Source of the DNA: Flavobacteriaceae bacterium
GTDB lineage: Bacteria > Bacteroidota > Bacteroidia > Flavobacteriales > Flavobacteriaceae
Reading direction: 5' to 3'
Assembly: GCA_947483075.1 (NCBI GenBank)
Contig: CANKLE010000002.1
Span: 124,001 to 188,000, forward strand
Length of the DNA stretch: 64,000 bases
The notes under the pieces are model-generated. The model saw nothing but the letters and a program-made list of their open reading frames with translations, made no database searches and was not told where the DNA came from. The position numbers were made by a program, and so were the translations under genes. Position 1 is the first letter of the stretch. Each line of letters starts with the position of its first letter. Positions 8,263-10,907 of this stretch are shown here, piece by piece.

Positions 8263-8691
8263 ATGAAAAGAGTTGTATGTATATTGCTGATTGCGGCCTT
8301 TTTTTCGTGTAATCAAAAAAACGAAACTACAACAGTTGCTCCAAAAGTTACACCAACTGCAGCGCCAAAAACTGTTGGATCAGATCTTGATACCCACGGA
8401 TGTAAAACTTCGGCTGGCTATACTTGGTCTTCGTTGCGCAACGACTGTGTGCGCATTTTTGAGGTGGGAACGCGATTGGATCCTGTTGAACCCAACGGCA
8501 TGAGTGCATTTGTTATTTTGGATGCAAAAGTCAACAAAGCAGAAGTATTTACCTTGCTCGAAAAACAACCCGTCATTTTAACTCAAGTTGGTAAAGGAAC
8601 CTATACCAATGGGAATTGGGAATTGATCACGCATTCTAAATTAGCAAAGCTACTATACAAAGGAAAAGTTACTTTTATCCAACCCGAGTAG
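8263..8691 (+). CDS. Small lipoprotein of unknown function (142 aa)
   Basis: The track ORF begins at 8206, but the in-frame ATG at 8263 gives a proper lipoprotein signal, MKRVVCILLIAAFFSCNQKN, directly after the upstream stop (TAAGATG). A Thr/Ala/Pro linker (TTTVAPKVTPTAAPKT) leads to a small domain containing CKTSAGYTWSSLRNDCVR with two cysteines that could pair. Its last 17 nt overlap the convergent esterase gene. Function unknown. Confidence 0.75.
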   Translation: MKRVVCILLIAAFFSCNQKNETTTVAPKVTPTAAPKTVGSDLDTHGCKTSAGYTWSSLRNDCVRIFEVGTRLDPVEPNGMSAFVILDAKVNKAEVFTLLEKQPVILTQVGKGTYTNGNWELITHSKLAKLLYKGKVTFIQPE

Positions 8692-9331
8692 TGATCAACC
8701 ACTGATTTAAATCATAAAAATTTTGTGGCGAAACTCCGTGACCTATGGGGTATTCCTGGTATTGAACTTGCACACCCAAATTCGTTAAACTTTCTGGGGC
8801 CTTGCGTGCCCATTCTACTGGAATTACTTGGTCAACGGTGCCGTGAGAGGTGTATATTTGTAGCCTAGACAAGTTATTTTTTTCAAAACCCGCTACTGCT
8901 ATTTCGTCATTCAAATAGCCGCTCAAAGCCGCTACACGCTGAATGCGTTCTGGGTAGGACAAAGCAACAGCATAGCTCAAAATAGCGCCTTGACTAAAGC
9001 CAATTAAAGTTACAGATTGGGCATCAAGAGGATAGGCTTGTTGCAATTCGTTCAGAGTTGTCAAAATTAAATCTCGGGAACTCCGCGCTTGCTCTAAATC
9101 TGAGAATTTACTGGCATCTGCATCAAAATTAATCGCATACCACGCATAACTCCCATACTGTAAATCATGGGGCGCTTGCAAGGAAATTACAAAATATTCT
9201 TCGGGTAGTTCTGATGCAAACGAAAACAAATCGGCTTCGTTACTGCCATACCCGTGCAACAACAAGAGCAACGGATTTTTATCCAACATTACTTTGGGTG
9301 GACGAACTAAATAGGTTGAAATTCCCGCCAT
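8675..9331 (-). CDS. Alpha/beta hydrolase, phospholipase/carboxylesterase family
   Basis: A 218-aa serine esterase. The nucleophile elbow GFSQGA, the acid Asp in TSHGTVDQVIP and the His in YPIGHGVSP form the triad of the acyl-protein-thioesterase/carboxylesterase group. LLLLHGYGSNEADLF is the oxyanion-hole region. No signal peptide is present, so it is cytoplasmic. It is the last gene of a minus-strand operon; its start overlaps the upstream stop by one base (TAATG). It ends inside the convergent lipoprotein gene. Confidence 0.88.
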   Translation of the reverse strand: MAGISTYLVRPPKVMLDKNPLLLLLHGYGSNEADLFSFASELPEEYFVISLQAPHDLQYGSYAWYAINFDADASKFSDLEQARSSRDLILTTLNELQQAYPLDAQSVTLIGFSQGAILSYAVALSYPERIQRVAALSGYLNDEIAVAGFEKNNLSRLQIYTSHGTVDQVIPVEWARKAPESLTNLGVQVQYQEYPIGHGVSPQNFYDLNQWLITTRVG

Positions 9332-9657
9332 TAGTCGATCGATTTAAAAGCAGATTGAAATAAGTTGCCCAACAAAGGAATTGGTTTGCTCTCGCCTTTG
9401 ATGGCGCTAAAAATACCATATCCCCACAAAACGGAAACAAAAAGCCACATGGCCGAACTGATCATGTAATTATCAAAATTACTCACCAATAAACCCAGCG
9501 AAACAAAAGTTACCGATAAGCCCAAAGCTTGTCGAATATGAAAAGAGGCAAAGGGATTTTTGGGTTCCGAATTCATCGAAAGAGCGATGAGTACACCAAC
9601 GATTAATATATAGCTGGTTATGGCAGTCGATTTGCCGGCTTCGATTGAGTTTTTCAT
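9331..9657 (-). CDS. Small multi-pass membrane protein (DUF4870-like)
   Basis: A 108-aa protein with three predicted membrane helices (about 13-28, 44-60 and 66-85). The segment PFASFHIRQALGL resembles the FH-x-RQ signature of the DUF4870/Tic20-like group. Its start overlaps the upstream dihydroorotase-like gene by 4 nt (ATGA) and its stop overlaps the esterase start by one base, so it is translationally coupled to both. Role unknown. Confidence 0.75.
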   Translation of the reverse strand: MKNSIEAGKSTAITSYILIVGVLIALSMNSEPKNPFASFHIRQALGLSVTFVSLGLLVSNFDNYMISSAMWLFVSVLWGYGIFSAIKGESKPIPLLGNLFQSAFKSID

Positions 9658-10907
9658 GCAAGTTGGAGGATTCCTTGGTTGTAAATTCCGTACGCAACCC
9701 CTTTCATTTTATGCCCAAGTAAGGCGGCGTTTTTTGATTTTGATAAAATATGTGGGGCTTCAAATACCCAATCCACAGCAGGATTAAATAAGGTTAGTTC
9801 GGCCGTTGCACCTACTTCTATAGCTGAGGCTGCGATGCCAAATATTTTTTTTCCTGCGGTTAGTTTATCCAAAATTACGTCGAGAGGCAACACGGTTTGC
9901 AAAGCGCCAAATGCACTTTCAAGGCCAATTGTTCCGTCTTTGGCCAAATCAAATTCTAGGTTTTTGTGTTCGATGTCAATGGGGTTGTGGTCTGTGGTTA
10001 TGCAATCGATGCTGCCGTTTAACACGCCTTCTATCAAGGCCAAACGATCTGCTTCGGCACGCAGGGGAGGGCTCACTTTGTATCGGCTATCAAAATTCGT
10101 CAAACAACTGTCGTTCAACACCAAATGATGCACAGAGACACTACAACTTACCCGAATTCCTTTGGCTTTGGCCTCTTGTATTAATTGCACTGATTTTGCA
10201 GTCGAAATGGTGGGCAGGTGTATTTTTCCGTCGCAGTATTCGGCTAGAAATAAGGCACGTGCCACTTGAATTTCTTCGGCTAAATTTGGGATACCTTTTA
10301 GTCCCAATCGGGTAGCCTGAATTCCTTCGTTGGCAATACCTTGTCCTTTTAGGTTGTTGTCTTGGCAAAACAACAACAGTAAACCGTTAAAATCGTGGAG
10401 GTATTGCATCCCAATTTTAAGGATGTTGGCGTTGTCTATGTTCTTGGAATAATCCCCAAATGCAATGGCTCCGGCATTTTTCATGTCAAATAATTCGGCC
10501 ATGTCTTTGCCGGCACTTTCTTTGGTAAATGCCCCAATGGGATGCAAAGTAGTGGCAAACCCTTTGGCTTTATTTTGTACAAATTGTATTTGGGATTGGT
10601 TGTCGAGAACCGGTGTTGAATTGGGTTGAAGGGCAATCGCGGTAAACCCACTTTTGGCGGCTAGCTGCAGACCATTGGCTATGGTTTCTCGCTCTTCGTA
10701 TCCGGGCTCTCCCAACGAAACACTGCTGTCAAACCAACCGGGTGAAAGGTGCAAATTTGTGAGCTCTACAACAGTACAAGTTCCATCAGCAGAAAGTGAT
10801 GGGCCAATTTGTGCAATCTTGCCATCGGCAATCAAAACATCAACCTCTTGCAGGTGAAAGGCGCTGCTTGGATCTACAATCGTGGCATTTTTGAGAAGGG
10901 TTTTCAT
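9654..10907 (-). CDS. pyrC: Dihydroorotase homologue lacking metal-binding histidines
   Basis: A 417-aa amidohydrolase of the type of dihydroorotase called multifunctional complex type. The family scaffold is clear: an N-terminal beta-sandwich, SPGWFD, GFTAIALQPNSTPV, the substrate loop NFDSRYKVSPPLR (271-283) and TTDHNP (Asp306). The binuclear zinc site is lost: DxHxH is DSSVS (60-64), the usual VHAED region reads LLLFCQD (177-183), and HVSTA reads LPTISTA (231-237). It should therefore be inactive as a dihydroorotase, like the non-catalytic pseudo-DHOases known to support aspartate transcarbamoylase in some bacteria. A separate active PyrC would be needed elsewhere in the genome. The start overlaps the BatA gene by 4 nt. 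Confidence 0.85.
   Translation of the reverse strand: MKTLLKNATIVDPSSAFHLQEVDVLIADGKIAQIGPSLSADGTCTVVELTNLHLSPGWFDSSVSLGEPGYEERETIANGLQLAAKSGFTAIALQPNSTPVLDNQSQIQFVQNKAKGFATTLHPIGAFTKESAGKDMAELFDMKNAGAIAFGDYSKNIDNANILKIGMQYLHDFNGLLLLFCQDNNLKGQGIANEGIQATRLGLKGIPNLAEEIQVARALFLAEYCDGKIHLPTISTAKSVQLIQEAKAKGIRVSCSVSVHHLVLNDSCLTNFDSRYKVSPPLRAEADRLALIEGVLNGSIDCITTDHNPIDIEHKNLEFDLAKDGTIGLESAFGALQTVLPLDVILDKLTAGKKIFGIAASAIEVGATAELTLFNPAVDWVFEAPHILSKSKNAALLGHKMKGVAYGIYNQGILQLA

Follow-up and report, generated by a model that had tools for sequence, protein, structure and literature searches.

The window, a 64,000-nucleotide stretch of a Flavobacteriaceae genome, contains a minus-strand operon in which the gene for a dihydroorotase (DHOase) homologue, the pseudo-dihydroorotase (pDHO), overlaps both of its neighbors (Table 1). 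Upstream, the gene for a membrane protein with BatA-N and VWA regions shares 4 nt with the pDHO gene (10904-10907), an overlap that the initial annotation had recorded and that is real. Downstream, the pDHO gene shares 4 nt (9654-9657) with an ORF encoding a membrane-protein-like product, which is kept in near relatives only. A single-protein scan gave seven named near relatives. By name, the nearest belong to Flavobacterium, with identities of 78% to a Flavobacterium MAG and 59% to Flavobacterium covae. The BatA gene that precedes pDHO in F. covae seems to be divided between two ORFs (L256 2384-4001).

Table 1. Features of the pDHO operon and other pyrimidine genes of the same genome. Plain coordinates are positions in the window; those with a contig label (C) refer to the window's genome (G000).
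Feature	Coordinates	Strand	Basis or remark
Alpha/beta hydrolase, downstream operon member	8675-9331	-	PF02230
Membrane-protein-like ORF, 108 aa, downstream in operon	9331-9657	-	no Pfam or NCBIfam family found
pDHO gene	9654-10907	-	intact ORF, 417 aa, ATG start
Retained catalytic-site Asp (Aquifex D305) in pDHO	9990-9992	-	Aquifex alignment
Conserved segment GIANEGIQATRLGLKGIPNLAE after the catalytic-loop start	10275-10340	-	kept as in active ATCase-associated DHOs
DSSVS replacing DxHxH of active DHOases (H61 and H63 to Ser)	10716-10730	-	alignment
BatA-N and VWA membrane protein, 640 aa	10904-12826	-	PF07584, 74.5 bits; TIGR02226; PF13519 just under cut-off
Second DHOase (PyrC)	G000:C9:25213-26442 (L001 1447-2859)		profile and alignment evidence
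pyrB	G000:C11:21790-22680		contig other than that of pDHO
pyrD-type gene	C2:87330-88190		window's genome

Metal site and predicted fold of pDHO

pDHO is a type I DHOase homologue, with NF006558 as its top NCBIfam match (5e-99) and the PDB entries 3mpg and 3d6n as its best phmmer matches (~1e-69). Its score against TIGR00857 (pyrC_multi) is 278.0 bits, just below the cut-off of 279.05, and the protein has neither of the two marks of an active dihydroorotase, a score above this cut-off and the metal ligands. The pDHO protein yields no Pfam match at 0.001. PF12890, applied as a DHOase probe to the window's own genome, gave no matches, and TIGR00857 was used instead.

An alignment with the Aquifex DHO, whose metal-site residues have assigned roles (PMC3880350), shows that five of the six metal-site residues are changed in pDHO (H61S, H63S, D153Y, H180F and H232T; Aquifex numbering). 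The initial annotation had correctly read the DSSVS sequence in place of DxHxH, as well as the loss of the other histidines and the retention of one aspartate, which corresponds to D305. Its statement that the substrate loop is kept applies to the NEG..LGLKGIP..AEE segment and the PPLR motif, both of which are retained, but not to the catalytic-face residues R65, A307 and H309. The substrate-binding R65 is replaced by glycine, and N95 is retained. Loop A of the Aquifex DHO, which precedes the conserved segments, becomes ordered when the protein enters the complex with ATC (PMC3880350). The AlphaFold model of pDHO has high confidence (pLDDT 95, pTM 0.92), and its top Foldseek matches are DHOases. 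The ATC-bound Aquifex DHO (3d6n) matches the model with a TM score of 0.93 at 32% identity, and the isolated, latent Aquifex DHO (1xrf), which also lacks disordered loops, with a TM score of 0.78.

The window's genome encodes a second DHOase of the PyrC type, in which the usual histidine, aspartate and substrate residues are present except that glutamine replaces the first histidine of HxH (DDQVHFREPG). A second pyrC gene, whose presence the initial annotation had proposed to check, is thus found, with a QxH rather than the HxH motif that it had specified; the lack of a second PyrC, which it had named as refuting its reading, does not apply. The same QxH occurs in the solved Porphyromonas gingivalis protein 2gwn. 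Because glutamine and histidine both occur at this position within that PyrC type, including in related genomes, QxH is probably tolerated. This catalytic-looking PyrC is presumed to be the sole active DHOase of the genome. Judged from sequence, pDHO can hardly be an enzyme; the non-catalytic reading already put forward in the initial annotation is supported by the ligand loss and by the second PyrC.

Ligand loss and selection across the class

The ligand residues were read in about 90 homologues from the class, and most ligands are gone in all but one of them, with replacement residues that vary by family. Members that bear HxH, such as those at L044 and L058, lack other ligands. The exception (G071) is an active-type DHO encoded directly behind pyrB, which groups with the DHO of Hymenobacter canadensis. 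On a 378-kb plasmid of H. canadensis (L292 2920-7118), pyrB, the gene for the active-type DHO, purE and purK lie in a row. The pDHOs of the class form a single clade (SH-aLRT 99; 100/100 in a second tree), and one ancestral loss of the ligands would therefore be enough to account for them; repeated independent losses within the class are rejected on the same ground.

The former ligand positions have become highly variable in pDHOs, and much of the remaining sequence is conserved. The ligand columns are invariant in 18 active DHOs and have entropies of 1.5-3.3 bits in 87 pDHOs, lowest at D305; at H61 and H63, in the DSSVS region, the entropy rises from 0 bits to 2.6-3.3 bits. Except at D305, the residues in the former ligand columns range over S, Q, N, R, K, F, G and further ones within the pDHO family. 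In the same 87 proteins, the G/E/P/A positions of the GIANEGIQATRLGLKGIPNLAE segment are 80-100% conserved, and the G/P/E positions 189, 193, 201, 206 and 210 and the PPLR motif 87-100%. The retained barrel and the D305, DH.P and PPLR motifs could suit an active amidohydrolase that has a different substrate, an altered metal site or a mechanism that needs no metal. A new site should bring new invariant polar residues, however, and the ligand columns other than D305 vary widely, which makes such an enzyme very unlikely; a new metal site in particular is rejected, as no new invariant residues appear in these columns.

Most homologue pairs with usable dS give a dN/dS ratio of 0.06-0.10, and the window's pDHO compared with its nearest relative gives 0.10; two distant pairs give about 0.2 with saturated dS. 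The loss of the metal site is thus clade-wide and accompanied by purifying selection, the two properties for which the initial annotation had suggested aligning the subfamily. Since catalytic residues are gone and some families are very divergent, pDHO could be viewed as a decaying pseudogene kept in the operon by chance. This view is untenable, because the matches are free of stop codons in nearly all listed genomes (two have one in-frame TAA), the fold is predicted with high confidence and the selection data refute it; the pseudogene reading is rejected on dN/dS. The intact ORF also speaks against chance decay. The two in-frame TAA codons are found in the matches at G184:C8:145078-146331 and G148:C69:55126-56379, one in each. 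In one family (f66; L122, L123, L272, L276 and L278), pDHO is extremely degenerate, with about 25% identity. An assignment of the genomes of this family as pDHO-less was rejected, as a very degenerate copy is present.

Distribution of pDHO, PyrB, PyrI and BatA

The presence of pDHO, pyrB, pyrI and long BatA was compared in 197 genomes of the class, with exceptions rechecked using profiles; many of these genomes are fragmented, and absences can be assembly gaps. About 180 of the 197 genomes contain pDHO by score; in roughly half of them, the ligand residues themselves were read and are lost. PyrI was found in nine genomes, none of which contains pDHO; these nine possess the other PyrC type only. 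The mutual exclusion of PyrI and pDHO has a Fisher p value of 2e-11, which is uncorrected for phylogeny and overstates the independent evidence, since the PyrI genomes are few and related and may represent one or two events. One of the pDHO-less genomes (G220) has a PyrI-type PyrB, and members of its family retain pDHO. The PyrBs of three other pDHO-less genomes (G012, G094 and G195) form very long branches, and four further such genomes (G177, G207, G282 and G310) have no pyrB over the cut-off. G282, whose assembly has no pyrB over the cut-off, belongs to the same genus as G071.

In the PyrB tree, the PyrBs of pDHO genomes cluster with PyrBs whose genes adjoin that of an active DHO, and the PyrI-type PyrBs are set apart on a 100/100 branch. 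The PyrB of the window's genome belongs to the lineage that pairs with DHO, and the G071 pyrB branches separately. In the outgroup classes, the gene for an active DHO lies directly 3' of pyrB at all of the loci L003-L025, with gaps of -3 to 41 nt. The PyrBs of the f66 genomes, in which pDHO is very degenerate, lie on a long branch. Rate covariation between PyrB and pDHO, compared in nine genomes, is only suggestive, since BatA gives a similar pairwise correlation.

At 73 of the 92 loci sampled throughout the class, a BatA gene lies directly upstream of pDHO, mostly with gaps of less than 50 nt, and the presence of pDHO and long BatA is correlated overall (p 9e-8), partly since the families f58, f76 and f85 lack both. 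One genome (G162) has both pDHO and BatA and no pyrB that was found. These observations would suit a pDHO unrelated to pyrimidines that acts in a membrane complex with BatA/VWA, as its scaffold or its cytoplasmic subunit; the initial annotation had suggested a scaffold tied to BatA/VWA. Co-occurrence is not obligate, however, with six exceptions on one side and eight on the other. Six pDHO genomes (G002, G007, G032, G075, G090 and G110) lack long BatA; they come from three families (f3, f4 and f8) in which the other members retain BatA, and all six contain pyrB without pyrI. Conversely, long BatA occurs without pDHO in eight genomes (G071, G177, G207, G220, G252, G273, G282 and G310), and the ATCase is changed or missing in each. 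The presence of pDHO follows the ATCase type and not BatA. With both sets of exceptions tracking the ATCase type, a scaffold tied to BatA/VWA is unsupported as the main function of pDHO and is improbable; the BatA neighbor is probably a conserved genomic address rather than a functional partner. In G162 (L116 217-1446, family f48), the pDHO is degenerate and its gene overlaps that of BatA, in a 2-Mb assembly in which pyrD is present. No pyrB was found in G162 or in a further pDHO-keeping genome, G260, both of which are multi-contig assemblies.

Relation to known complexes and proposed role in aspartate transcarbamoylase

In the class A2 ATCase of Pseudomonas (PyrC'/PyrX; Schurr 1995, Patel 2020 PMC7053772), an inactive type I DHOase homologue is likewise combined with PyrB and a separate PyrC. 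In Pseudomonas aeruginosa, PyrB is otherwise monomeric and inactive and requires the inactive pDHO chain to form an active dodecamer (PMC7053772). The window's genome shares these gene features, a likeness drawn from the described features of PyrC', and in addition has no PyrI: pyrB was found in the genome and pyrI was not, as expected for a class A2 system. In contrast to class A2 of Pseudomonas, pDHO is encoded away from pyrB, on a separate contig, and is paired with a BatA/VWA gene. A pDHO gene beside pyrB is usual in Pseudomonas but not defining. pDHO was located near pyrB at only two sampled loci (L138 and L174), 3-4 kb apart and on the opposite strand.

Other DHO-ATC systems resemble pDHO in part. 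The DHO of the Aquifex aeolicus complex (class A1; 3d6n and 4bjh) has the same fold and the same conserved segments after loop A but, unlike pDHO, retains the zinc ligands and stays active when bound to ATC; in that complex, two ATC trimers are held together by three dimers of DHO (PMC7053772). The alphaproteobacterial proteins annotated as dihydroorotase near pyrB (Sinorhizobium meliloti pSymB and Azospirillum) likewise lack HxH, with RxF or RxL, and other ligands. Unlike that of the window, their genes lie directly or closely behind pyrB, with a 4-nt overlap in S. meliloti. A tree that places the class and alphaproteobacterial proteins in a single pseudo-DHO clade is not rejected, nor is it favored (AU p 0.31). 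The pseudo-DHO domain of fungal URA2, as in C. thermophilum, also has a DHO fold without zinc ligands and is tied to ATCase (PMC7053772) but differs in being part of one polypeptide with CPSase and ATCase.

The exclusion of PyrI, the co-distribution with one PyrB lineage and the loss of pDHO where pyrB is replaced or missing argue that pDHO is a structural, and possibly regulatory, subunit of a class A2-like ATCase, as in Pseudomonas, a reading to which we assign a probability of roughly 0.8. By analogy with the known complexes, pDHO dimers would hold a pair of PyrB trimers together in a 6:6 dodecamer, and dodecamer formation may stabilize or activate the PyrB trimer; the complex, its stoichiometry and the dependence of PyrB on pDHO are all modeled on these relatives. 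DHOase activity would be supplied by the separate PyrC. Consistent with the subunit reading, pDHO is absent wherever PyrB has been exchanged (G071, G220, G012/G094 and G195), is akin to DHOs encoded beside pyrB and, in its AlphaFold model, matches the ATC-bound Aquifex form, and the degenerate pDHO of f66 occurs together with a long-branch PyrB. The precedent that the initial annotation had cited, pseudo-DHOases as structural partners of ATCase, is thereby backed by comparative data. The separation of the pDHO gene from pyrB and the two pDHO genomes without a pyrB found (G162 and G260) count against the subunit reading, as does the BatA-pDHO gene pair, which is real across the class and left unexplained by an ATCase role.

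An ATCase subunit that also anchors the enzyme to the membrane via BatA would account both for the co-distribution of pDHO with ATCase and for its conserved pairing with BatA. Each gene persists without the other, however, so that any link between them is dispensable, and such a dual use is quite improbable. A class-wide link from ATCase through pDHO to membrane BatA/VWA, with pyrimidine synthesis membrane-anchored or envelope-coupled where both genes are kept, is similarly improbable. A literature search, mostly without subscription papers, returned nothing on a Bacteroidota pseudo-DHO or its link to BatA.

If pDHO is an ATCase subunit, most of the class (about 180 of the 197 sampled genomes) would make pyrimidines with an ATCase built on a dead-enzyme scaffold, and the class A2 design would extend from Pseudomonas to this class. 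The natural replacements, PyrI or an active DHO-PyrB pair, would then show which partner a PyrB needs, and the question would arise of why a scaffold gene split from pyrB is paired with a BatA/VWA gene class-wide. Annotations of pDHO as dihydroorotase, for example in Rufibacter, would be misleading. In Rufibacter tibetensis, a BatA-like gene and pDHO are found on a 12.5-kb circular record named 'plasmid 2' (L289 3338-9479), which also contains two DUF4199 genes and two glycosyltransferase genes.
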